Shown: one piece after another, positions 3,624 through 52,227 of the stretch
Position numbering within the stretch: position 1 is the first letter of the stretch
How the letters are laid out: the number at the start of each line of letters is the position of its first letter
Source: Halomicroarcula saliterrae
Lineage (GTDB): Archaea; Halobacteriota; Halobacteria; Halobacteriales; Haloarculaceae
Assembly (NCBI RefSeq): GCF_031624395.1
Contig: NZ_JAMQON010000002.1
Coordinates: forward strand, 372,001-436,000
Reading direction: 5' to 3'
DNA: 64,000 bases
Position numbers and translations under genes: made by a program
The notes under the pieces: model-generated
Database searches by the model: none
What the model was told of the DNA's origin: nothing
Seen by the model: the letters and a program-made list of their open reading frames with translations, nothing else

Positions 3624-4301
3624 CTACGCCGCGTCGTCGGCCGATTCGAAGTTGTCGTCGAAGGCGTACTCGTCGACGTCGAGTTCGTCGCGAACGATGT
3701 GCGTCCGGATGTACTCGTCCATCTTCTCCCACACCACCGGTCGCGTGTCGTCGGTTCGAGTCGTCAGTTCGAGGATAGCACCGTCGACCGTCGTGAGCAG
3801 GAACCTCGCCGTCTTCTCGGCTTCGACGTCTTCGAACACTCCCTGTTCGATACCCGCCGCGATGATATCGGTGAGATTCTCCACGTACTTCTCGGTCGTC
3901 TCGGTGAACTTCTCGGCGAACGCCGGGTCGTGAATCGCCTGGGAACGGAGCTCTATCCAGACGCCCATCCGCTCGACGGAGTCGGGTCGGTCCCGCGCGA
4001 TGGGGTGGGTACCGAGGGCGAAGTTCAGGAACGCATAGAGGTCCTCGACCGGGTCGCCGGTCGATTCGACCTCGAAACCGCGCCCGAACTGCGCTATCGT
4101 GAAATCGGCAAACGACAGCAGGAGGTCCTCTTTGTCGTCGAAGTGGTGGTAGAACGTCGACTTGCTGAGATCGCCCTCGTCGGCGATGCGGGAGATGGAG
4201 AGCCCAGCGTACCCGTGTTCGTGCAACGCGTCGTAGGTCGCGTACATAATCGCTTCACGCGTATTGGCGGGCTCCCTGTTGGACGCCGTCCCGTCGCTCA
4301 T
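3624..4301 (-). CDS. TetR/AcrR-family transcriptional regulator
   Basis: A 225-residue regulator starting at MSDGTASN. The N-terminal helix-turn-helix is classical for TetR: REAIMYATYDALHEHGY, then ISRIADEGDLSKSTFYHHFDDKEDLL. A ligand-binding helical domain follows, and the last 30 residues are very acidic. The closest target candidates are its own promoter and neighbouring genes. No efflux pump is adjacent, although an RND pair lies 4 kb away. The ligand is unknown. Confidence 0.9.
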   Translation of the reverse strand: MSDGTASNREPANTREAIMYATYDALHEHGYAGLSISRIADEGDLSKSTFYHHFDDKEDLLLSFADFTIAQFGRGFEVESTGDPVEDLYAFLNFALGTHPIARDRPDSVERMGVWIELRSQAIHDPAFAEKFTETTEKYVENLTDIIAAGIEQGVFEDVEAEKTARFLLTTVDGAILELTTRTDDTRPVVWEKMDEYIRTHIVRDELDVDEYAFDDNFESADDAA

Positions 4302-4379
4302 ACGGGGCTGGTAGTCCACAGCGGGACAAATAGCTTGTCACAGGACGAGGGAGTCTGTCGCGGGCACCAGCGAGAGCAG

Positions 4380-5546
4380 TCATGCCGTCCCTTCGAGGTC
4401 GTAGAGCCGCCGGAACACCTGCGTCGGGAACCGGGGCTCGACGCGGCTCGGCGGCCGGCCGGTCGTCGAGCCGTCCATTCGGACCCGCTCGACGATACCG
4501 TCGTCGGCGAACTCGTACAGGTACCGTTTGACTGTCCCGGCCGAAAGGTCGACGTCCGCGGCGATGGCGGCGGCCGTGTCCTCGACCGACGAGCAGTCGT
4601 CCGCCCCGACGTCCAGCAACGCGCGCAGGACCCGCTGGCGGTTCGGGGGAAGCATGAGCACCTGCGCGAGGGGGACACAGGGGCGGGGAATCCCCTCGCA
4701 CGCGTGGGCGATGTCCTCGTCGTCGATACGGGACCGGCGGCGCTCACTCGCCCGGGTGGCGGCGGCGAACAGCGCGGCCAGCGCGTCGTGGGCGTTCCCG
4801 TTCGCCCACGTAGCGATGGTACGGCACCGCTGGTACGTGAGCGCGTGGGCGTCGAGCCCCGACATCACCCGGCTGGAGACGACGTCGGCGAGGGTCTCCG
4901 TGTCGTAGGCCGGCATCTCGATGCGTTTCGCGGGCGGGTCCTCGAGGGCGGCCGGGCGGTCGCGGCCGATAGCCAGCAGGGCGAGCGAGTCGCCGAGGCC
5001 GTCGAGCCGCTCGGCGAGCGCCGACAGCGCGTAGGTCTCTGCCTCGCCGACGTGGTCGACAGCGACGACGGCGCGGCGGGACGACGGAGCCAGCGCGTCG
5101 CGGAGCTGGGTCAGCAGGGTGTCGGTGCGGACCCCCTGTGTCGGGACCGACTCGTCGACGATACCGTCGAGGACGGCGTGGTAGAGGCCGAAGTCGGTCG
5201 TGGCCGCCCGCGCGTCGACGTAGACGAACGACTGGGGCGGTTCGCGGTCGGGGCGAGCGCGGGTGGCCGTGTGGACGACAGCGCCCAGCCGTGACGGTCG
5301 GGGCTGCAGATGCGCGAACAGCGCGGTGACGACGGCTGACTTGCCGGCCCCGGCGGGGCCCCAGACGTAGGCGTCGGGCGGGAGGTCACCGTCGAGTATC
5401 GGGTCCAGATAGTCGAGCAGCGCTTCGAGGGTCGGACCGCGACCGACCGGGTCCGCGACGTGGGCGACCGGGCTGATGGCCTCGTCGTCGAGGACGAGTC
5501 CGGCGGCATCGACCTGCCGTCGTGTGATTCTCGCGTCTATATTCAT
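4380..5546 (-). CDS. Cdc6/Orc1-like AAA+ ATPase with winged helix
   Basis: A 388-residue protein from MNIDARITRR. Residues 30-60 resemble the Cdc6 lead-in (DPVGRGPTLEALLDYL), and the P-loop is VWGPAGAGKSAVV. The Walker B region is AVVAVDHVGE, where the usual DE pair is DH, and sensor 1 lacks the typical Asn. The C-terminus has a winged-helix unit (DLSAGTVKRYLYEFADDGIVERV). Full-size Orc1 proteins recognise origins, but the degraded motor motifs and lack of clear origin repeats beside it suggest a paralogue with another role, such as plasmid-like replication or regulation. The start is supported by the domain boundary. Confidence 0.75.
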   Translation of the reverse strand: MNIDARITRRQVDAAGLVLDDEAISPVAHVADPVGRGPTLEALLDYLDPILDGDLPPDAYVWGPAGAGKSAVVTALFAHLQPRPSRLGAVVHTATRARPDREPPQSFVYVDARAATTDFGLYHAVLDGIVDESVPTQGVRTDTLLTQLRDALAPSSRRAVVAVDHVGEAETYALSALAERLDGLGDSLALLAIGRDRPAALEDPPAKRIEMPAYDTETLADVVSSRVMSGLDAHALTYQRCRTIATWANGNAHDALAALFAAATRASERRRSRIDDEDIAHACEGIPRPCVPLAQVLMLPPNRQRVLRALLDVGADDCSSVEDTAAAIAADVDLSAGTVKRYLYEFADDGIVERVRMDGSTTGRPPSRVEPRFPTQVFRRLYDLEGTA

Positions 5547-49393: not shown

Positions 49394-52111
49394 CTACCAA
49401 GTCAGCCCCTCGTAGGTGATGCCCTCGCGGCGCGTGACGATTCTGCGACCGTCCACGACGACAGCGTCGGCCATCCCGTCGAACGCCTCGTCCAGCGCGG
49501 CGAACTCGTCCCAGTCGGTGACGACGACCGCGCCCGAGGCCCCGTCGAGCGCGGCGGCGGCCGACTCGGCGTACTCGATGTCCGGATACCGCTCGCGCAT
49601 GTTCTCGGTCGCCACGGGGTCGTAGGCGACGACTTCGGCGCCCCGCTCGCGCAGCCCCTCGATGACCGGCACCGCCCGCGTGTTGCGGATGTCGTCGGTG
49701 CCGGGCTTGAACGCGAGCCCCAGCACGGCGACGCGCTCGCCCGACACGTCGACGTGGTCGTCGAGCAGGGCGAGCAGGCGTTCCGGCTGGGCGTCGTTCA
49801 GTTCGACGACCGCGGAGAGCACGGCGGGGTCGTAGCCCGCCTCGCGGGCGGCAGCGATGATAGCGTCGGTGTCTTTCGGGAAGCAGTTGTGGACGACCAG
49901 CCCATCCGTCGTCACGAACGTGTGATTGTCCGCAACTTCGAGCGAGTATACGTCTGTCGACGTCTCTTCGACGGTGACATCTTGGACTTCGACCGTCGTG
50001 TGAGTGCCACCGTCAGCGTACCCAGTCGGCGTGATATTCCGGTCGTACGCGTCAAGTCGCCGCTGAATTCGCTGTTGTTCCTCAGGCAGGAACATGCCTT
50101 TGAGTAGCGCAATCTGTTGTTTCGAACTCACGCGCAGGAAGTGGGCCGGTCTCGTGGATTTCGCTGCCTGTGACGTCTTGTAACTGGGCACGATACCGAG
50201 GCTGTGGAGGAGAAACTGCATGCCTTGAATGAGGTCTTCGCTGACGGAGCCGTAGTCGTACACGACGGCGTTGGAGTGACTTGTGTACTCGATGTGGCCG
50301 TCCCCTCGGAACAACCCCGAGAGCAGCGCTTTCCGGTGTGCCGTAGGCTCCTGGTACGCGAGATCCGGCACTGCCGCCGTGTACGAGCCAGTTCCGCAGC
50401 CGAGCCATTCGAGCAGATAGGCGAAGACACGGCTCGAAACCTCGATTTGCGTCGCCGTCTCCTGTGTTTCAGTCCGGTATCGGACGCCAAGGCGTTCGTA
50501 GAACGACTCTACGTCCGAGACGTACGCCTCCTCGTCGGACGGATGGAAACTCAGGAAGACGCGCTTGCGAATGTTCGAGCCACGTGCGGAGTCGTCTGCG
50601 TGTATATGACCTTCGCTCAGGTAATAGCCGATAAACCGCCAGAACGCCTCGTCCGCGTCGAGAATCGCGGGTATATACGTCTGTCCGCCGCCGACAGTCG
50701 TGTAGAGCGATAGCTCCTCACGGCCGAACGGTAACTCGGCCTCGTAGTCGAGGAACACGTCGAGCGGGAGGTAGTTACTCCGGACGAGGTCGTGAAGTTT
50801 GGAATAATCGAATGTACGGTTGTACTCGGCCAGCACGTCGCGGAACTCTTCGTCGACAGTTTCCAGTTCGAAAGACGGCTTCAAATAGACGTTCGAGTTG
50901 TCGAACCGGTCAGACGACGCCACCAAGTCGAGTACGTCTATCCGTCCGATCGGGTCGTCGGGAAGGCTCGTCTGTACCGGAAGCCTGTCACCGGGTGACA
51001 GTGAATTGGCCTCACGAACTGTAGCGCTACCCCCGTCGACCGTCACCATCGGATGGTCGCGGGTGACGGTGACCTCCTTGTTCATCTTCGTCCGGAACGT
51101 GTAGAGTTCGTCGTCGTAAGGCCGCCGAGTTGCCGCCTCGACCGGCTTGAATTCGAAGACCCCGTCTTCGTCACAGCTCAGGACGGATACCTCGTCGACG
51201 GCGCCGTCGGAGACGTACTCGTCGAAAAATTCGCGGAGAGTGAGAAGTTGCGTACCGGCGCAGTCCTTTGCCATCACCCGCTGATCACCAGTCAGGCAGC
51301 TGCCCCCCCATCCCACGCCGCTGCGGAGGAACCGCTCGCCGATGCGGTCGTCCAGCCCGACGGCCTCGGCCACCTCGTAGGCGTCGACGCCGAACTCCTT
51401 GCAGACGTTGCCGATGTCGTTTATCAGCGACACTTTGCCCGCGAGGAAGGTGTTGTTGGCGTACTTTATCATCTCGGCCTCGGCGATGCCCGTCTCGACG
51501 ACGGGGACTTCGCCGTCGGCGGCCTCGCGAAGGGGCTCGTACAGCGCCCGGAGCGCGTCGAACGCGCGCTCGTCGTCGGCGCCGAAGACGAGTTTGTCGG
51601 GGTTCAGGAAGTCCGCGACGGCGGTCCCCTCGCGCTGGAACTCCGGGTTCGAGGCGACGAGGAAGTCCGTTCCGCGCTCCAGCCCGGCATCGGCGATACG
51701 GGGCGCGAGGCGCTCGTCGGTCGTCCGCGGGATGACCGTGGACTTGGTGACGACGAGGTGCGGGCGGTCGCTCCCCGCGCCCGCAGCCAGCGCCTCGCCG
51801 ACGCTCGCCGCGCCGGCCTCCATGAACTGCAGGTCGATGCTGCCGTCGTCGTTCGACGGCGTCGGCAGGGCGAGCATCGTCAGTTCGGTGTCCCGGACGG
51901 CGCCGTAGTCGGTGGTCGCCCGCAGCCGGCCGCCGCCGTGGTCGGCGACCAGTTCGTCCAGCCCCGGCTCGTGTATCGGCGACTCCCCGTCGTTGATTCC
52001 GGCGACGATGGCCTCGTCGATGTCGATAGCCGTGACCTCGTGACCCAGGTCGGCGAGACACGCGGCAACCGTGGTGCCGACGTAGCCGCTGCCGACGATA
52101 CTCACGTTCAT
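49394..52111 (-). CDS. aglM: UDP-glucose 6-dehydrogenase interrupted by an intein
   Basis: A 905-residue precursor. After splicing, the host protein has 434 residues: residues 1-271 (Rossmann motif GSGYVGTTVAACLADLGHEV, KSTVIPRTTDE, ASNPEFQREGTAV, KYANNTFLAGKVSLINDIGNVCKEFG) joined to 163 C-terminal residues (CFPKDTDAI, VLGLAFKPGTDDIRNTRA). It oxidises UDP-glucose to UDP-glucuronate with two NAD+; in Haloferax the homologue AglM serves N-glycosylation. The intein separates GWGGS from CFPKD, so the catalytic Cys is the first C-extein residue. The start MNVSIVG begins the nucleotide-binding strand. Without splicing the enzyme cannot be active. Confidence 0.94.
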   Translation of the reverse strand: MNVSIVGSGYVGTTVAACLADLGHEVTAIDIDEAIVAGINDGESPIHEPGLDELVADHGGGRLRATTDYGAVRDTELTMLALPTPSNDDGSIDLQFMEAGAASVGEALAAGAGSDRPHLVVTKSTVIPRTTDERLAPRIADAGLERGTDFLVASNPEFQREGTAVADFLNPDKLVFGADDERAFDALRALYEPLREAADGEVPVVETGIAEAEMIKYANNTFLAGKVSLINDIGNVCKEFGVDAYEVAEAVGLDDRIGERFLRSGVGWGGSCLTGDQRVMAKDCAGTQLLTLREFFDEYVSDGAVDEVSVLSCDEDGVFEFKPVEAATRRPYDDELYTFRTKMNKEVTVTRDHPMVTVDGGSATVREANSLSPGDRLPVQTSLPDDPIGRIDVLDLVASSDRFDNSNVYLKPSFELETVDEEFRDVLAEYNRTFDYSKLHDLVRSNYLPLDVFLDYEAELPFGREELSLYTTVGGGQTYIPAILDADEAFWRFIGYYLSEGHIHADDSARGSNIRKRVFLSFHPSDEEAYVSDVESFYERLGVRYRTETQETATQIEVSSRVFAYLLEWLGCGTGSYTAAVPDLAYQEPTAHRKALLSGLFRGDGHIEYTSHSNAVVYDYGSVSEDLIQGMQFLLHSLGIVPSYKTSQAAKSTRPAHFLRVSSKQQIALLKGMFLPEEQQRIQRRLDAYDRNITPTGYADGGTHTTVEVQDVTVEETSTDVYSLEVADNHTFVTTDGLVVHNCFPKDTDAIIAAAREAGYDPAVLSAVVELNDAQPERLLALLDDHVDVSGERVAVLGLAFKPGTDDIRNTRAVPVIEGLRERGAEVVAYDPVATENMRERYPDIEYAESAAAALDGASGAVVVTDWDEFAALDEAFDGMADAVVVDGRRIVTRREGITYEGLTW
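49886..51298 (-). other. Intein with LAGLIDADG homing endonuclease in UDP-glucose dehydrogenase
   Basis: 471 residues from Cys1 (CLTGDQRVMAK, block A) to the terminal His-Asn (GLVVHN), followed by Cys+1 of the host. Block B is TVTRDHPMVTVDG with the conserved TxxH, and block F/G is DVYSLEVADNHTFVTTDGLVVHN. In the middle lie two LAGLIDADG-type segments, FIGYYLSEGHI and LLSGLFRGDGHI, so the endonuclease looks whole. All splicing residues are present. Composition is AT-richer than the exteins, as expected for a mobile element. Confidence 0.93.
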
Positions 52112-52227
52112 TGGCGGTGGATTGGCCGCCCCGTGTGATGAGAATTCGGGTCCTTCGGTCGTCGTCACGCGGTCGGCCACGTCCGACAGTCTGTGGGGTC
52201 TCGGGCCCTGTGTGGAGCGATAATCGG

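Follow-up and report, generated by a model that had tools for sequence, protein, structure and literature searches.

A further copy of the 'udp' intein at the catalytic cysteine of haloarchaeal UDP-glucose 6-dehydrogenase, with phylogenetic evidence of repeated homing

In the window analyzed here, the whole 64,000-nucleotide stretch from Halomicroarcula saliterrae (contig NZ_JAMQON010000002.1, positions 372,001 to 436,000), the aglM gene for UDP-glucose 6-dehydrogenase (UGD) is interrupted by an in-frame insertion. The locus raises the question of whether aglM hosts a homing intein, an intein that has lost its mobility, a regulatory switch, or a lesion that ruined the gene. Re-reading of the frame gave exactly the coordinates and sizes that a first-pass annotation had assigned to the element (49886-51298; a precursor of 905 and a product of 434 amino acids; Table 1). 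The start of aglM was taken from homologues, with an upstream GTG at 52180 as a possible alternative. The translated intein begins with CLTGDQRV, ends with GLVVHN and is flanked by GWGGS and CFPKD; its excision in silico yielded a UGD of 434 amino acids. The intein has a GC content of 58.6% (GC3 73%) versus 70-71% (GC3 93%) in the exteins.

Table 1. Features of the intein-bearing aglM gene (positions within the window)
Feature	Position	Strand	Basis
aglM precursor gene (UDP-glucose 6-dehydrogenase with intein), 905 aa	49394..52111	-	open frame and AglM match
N-extein, 271 aa, C-terminal GWGGS; NAD-binding and most of central UGD domain	51299..52111	-	sequence, Pfam
Intein, 471 aa (precursor residues 272-742)	49886..51298	-	sequence, Pfam, NCBIfam, AlphaFold model
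Cys1, first splicing nucleophile	51296..51298	-	sequence; invariant in relatives
Homing-endonuclease insert (limits approximate), intein residues 116-430, acidic E229 and D333	50009..50953	-	LAGLIDADG_3, conservation, model helices
His470-Asn471, C-terminal splice junction	49886..49891	-	sequence; invariant in relatives
Cys+1, splicing nucleophile, Cys272 of spliced UGD	49883..49885	-	sequence, alignment with solved UGDs
C-extein, 163 aa and stop, N-terminal CFPKD; UDP-binding domain	49394..49885	-	sequence, Pfam

Both UGD halves were recognized by Pfam/NCBIfam models above their cut-offs, and the NCBIfam equivalog NF041297 identified the host protein as AglM (736 bits versus a cut-off of 670). 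The insertion matched Intein_splicing (49.1 bits, cut-off 35.8) and the Pfam family LAGLIDADG_3 (45.2 bits, cut-off 22.5), and the earlier description as a full-size intein is borne out; the intein_Nterm and intein_Cterm motifs also scored above their cut-offs. A search of the whole genome (G000) for intein N-termini gave a single match, the one in UGD.

The residues of a class 1 intein are present: C1, T79-R-D-H82 as block B TxxH, H470 and N471, and Cys+1. An alignment of 17 inteins, in which the relatives share 62-84% identity with the window copy, showed no variation at Cys1, TxxH, HN or either of the acidic LAGLIDADG residues, so that the splicing and endonuclease residues regarded as intact in the first-pass annotation are indeed all in place. 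An AlphaFold model of the intein (mean pLDDT 86.6, pTM 0.88) places E229 and D333 at or just after two predicted helices (residues 217-229 and 319-330); conservation, model and LAGLIDADG_3 match thus agree on two LAGLIDADG helices with acidic residues. A Hint fold is indicated by the Pfam match and by the predicted structure, of which residues 1-471 aligned with the TliVMA intein (7qss) at Z 35.9 over 350 residues and 2.4 Å, and which also gave whole-length alignments with PI-PkoII (2cw7, Z 35.1) and PI-PfuI (1dq3, Z 28.9). These three share with the window intein a Hint domain with a nested LAGLIDADG endonuclease but are other inteins, with 16-20% sequence identity.

In UGDs, the cysteine of the GGSCFPKD motif is the catalytic nucleophile. 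When the joined 434-residue sequence was compared with UGDs in the PDB, the alignments ran ungapped over the junction, all of those displayed reading GGSCFPKD; the product also aligned over its full length with uninterrupted homologues at identities of up to 91%. Cys+1, the splicing nucleophile, and the cysteine of the UGD motif are therefore one residue, and the intein lies directly before it, as had been proposed; from established knowledge of UGDs we take this residue, Cys272 of spliced AglM, to be the catalytic cysteine. We looked in the same genome for another UGD that could stand in for the spliced enzyme and rejected this possibility: the genome holds one AglM gene and two paralogous nucleotide-sugar dehydrogenases that score 144 and 181 bits, far under the AglM cut-off of 670. 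Their best specific families are UDP-GlcNAc and UDP-ManNAc dehydrogenase models, yet below the respective cut-offs, and they look like other nucleotide-sugar dehydrogenases judging by these scores. Because AglM is single and the paralogues resemble other enzymes, AglM activity likely depends on splicing, and the precursor would be inactive. Another carrier, G285, matched the spliced enzyme three times, and its top match far exceeds what a split half would give, which suggests an extra uninterrupted AglM beside the intein-bearing one; splicing may be dispensable there. The placement resembles that of the Pyrococcus horikoshii RadA intein, which interrupts the P-loop, a catalytic motif of the host protein, so that RadA activity needs splicing (PMC5790916). 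The RadA element differs in being a mini-intein without endonuclease, and its conditional splicing has been shown experimentally (PMC5790916).

The first-pass annotation had implied that UGD is a rare intein host, which is not supported. Soucy et al. (2014, PMC4071816) count 24 intein alleles in Halobacteria, one of which, 'udp', lies in UDP-glucose 6-dehydrogenase and has carriers in seven Halobacteria, two Bacteria and six other Euryarchaeota including M. jannaschii; they suggest 'udp' to be among the older alleles and attribute the patchy distribution of intein alleles to transfer. The window intein is a further copy of this allele, and UGD is therefore not a new host. It is mostly ordinary, agreeing with 'udp' in host enzyme, archaeal class and patchiness without a difference in kind, a match that rests on host enzyme and class, the text of PMC4071816 giving no insertion residue. 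The M. jannaschii UGD intein (NP_248048.1) is assigned to 'udp' in the table of that paper.

A survey of genomes, one per species, revealed full-length inteins at the same site in 20 of 391 Halobacteria genomes including the window's own, 62-81% identical to the window copy, and the intein is thus not a chance feature. AglM-like matches were present in 350 of the 391. The insertion site was identical in all 19 loci that reached both junctions; the inteins of Halorubrum saccharovorum and Halorientalis persicus occupy it, as does a 470-residue intein of a genome from the same phylum outside the class (G408). All clear matches in the Halobacteria sample spanned essentially the whole 471-residue query; mini-inteins, which would score weakly in this search, may have been missed. 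The intein was found in 14 of 146 genomes of the family (one with an in-frame stop) and in five of 32 of the genus, the other 27 being without it. Among the 30 best intein-free loci fetched, 29 had an empty site with GGS joined straight to CFPK, and the remaining one was unreadable there; close relatives with up to 91% host-protein identity have such an uninterrupted aglM.

Two broken copies were noted in metagenome-assembled relatives. In L041 (MAG SW_7_65_23, about 4001-5536) the frame of a same-site intein is broken within the endonuclease part, reflecting either a pseudogene or a metagenome assembly error; in G738 (same family, 79% complete) a same-site match starting from residue 87 (G738:C42:8930-10096) contains one in-frame TGA. 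Both are possibly assembly errors. Intein-profile matches across the phylum also included inteins of other hosts. Two incomplete genomes (loci L082 in G628 and L083 in G526) carry an intein ending in THN before CMGAQPIAL, the central part of which matched the UGD intein profile with an E value of about 1e-53; from the motif, the host gene is presumably PurL-like (phosphoribosylformylglycinamidine synthase). A viral or plasmid route was also considered and rejected: among phages, plasmids and viral contigs, the searches gave just distant inteins in other host genes, e.g. terminase-like ones. A study of Campylobacter phages describes inteins in genes for terminase, PhoH and ribonucleotide reductase and none in UGD (PMC3322345).

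Host and intein phylogenies are in conflict. In the host tree, carriers and noncarriers are interleaved, with at least seven changes of state. The carriers of the genus, with host proteins 88-93% identical, hold two distinct intein lineages, and a single clade for all inteins of the genus was rejected in a topology test (p-AU 1.5e-8). Two of them, G228 and G299, have host proteins that are 93% identical and inteins that are 70% identical; the inteins of G299 and Halorientalis persicus cluster together (support 88/97), and the H. persicus copy is in turn identical to the intein of G724, a member of a different genus. Conversely, G731 from another genus and the main lineage of the window's genus share 79-82% identity in their inteins and 73-76% in their host proteins. 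Repeated horizontal homing into a single site would be expected to leave such a pattern, which we take as evidence for it. Most carriers of the genus belong to one intein lineage, which by itself is compatible with vertical descent of an intein that still splices, its endonuclease being dead and merely intact in appearance; a single substitution away from the acidic residues might abolish activity unseen. We consider such a loss unlikely, given the second intein lineage in the genus, the fact that every clear copy at this site among the sampled Halobacteria is full length, and selection on the endonuclease part that is as strong as that on the splicing part. Within the genus, pairwise Nei-Gojobori dN/dS was 0.07-0.14 in the endonuclease part, compared with 0.12-0.16 in the splicing part and 0.12-0.13 in the exteins; these ratios are approximate because several dS values exceeded 1 and were near saturation. 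To this approximation, the endonuclease part is under purifying selection. The mobility that the first-pass annotation had considered possible is now probable, supported by the conflict between the trees and by the selection on the endonuclease.

Taken together, we are highly confident that the insertion belongs to the known 'udp' allele and that it is a full-length class 1 intein with an endonuclease, residing in aglM as a selfish homing element. The 905-residue precursor would be translated first. Cys1 and Cys+1 would then serve as the nucleophiles, along with cyclization of Asn471, releasing the intein and ligating GWGGS to CFPKD to give the 434-residue UGD with catalytic Cys272. The free intein is predicted to cleave aglM alleles that lack an insert, at the conserved site coding for GWGGSCFPKD, and repair of the break would copy the intein into the cut allele. 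Three properties of this site favor the element: its DNA is conserved, the +1 cysteine is constant, and imprecise loss of the intein would ruin the enzyme.

A co-opted switch, with splicing that depends on salt, redox or temperature and so controls UDP-glucuronate supply and thereby surface N-glycosylation, is very improbable for this intein, although other haloarchaeal inteins are cited as splicing in a salt-dependent manner (PMC7765530), AglM serves N-glycosylation with salt behavior differing between species (PMC5041007), and the enzyme is single copy in this genome. About 95% of the Halobacteria sampled, including most of the genus (27/32), do without the intein, its distribution and the tree conflict suit a selfish element, and no switch-specific sequence feature was found. 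If true, a switch would give carriers a post-translational glycan control that is absent from intein-free relatives, and conditional splicing would tie the intein to surface glycosylation. That the insertion ruined the gene, splicing failing in a pseudogene in the making, can practically be dismissed despite the broken frames of L041 and G738, the frame here being open, the splicing residues intact and the exteins of carriers under purifying selection (dN/dS about 0.12 in genus pairs).

Beyond the known allele, the aglM intein adds evidence for repeated homing, with two intein lineages within one genus. The locus offers a clean natural homing system with one conserved site in a metabolic gene of which this genome has a single copy, and with intact endonucleases and close relatives whose site is empty.
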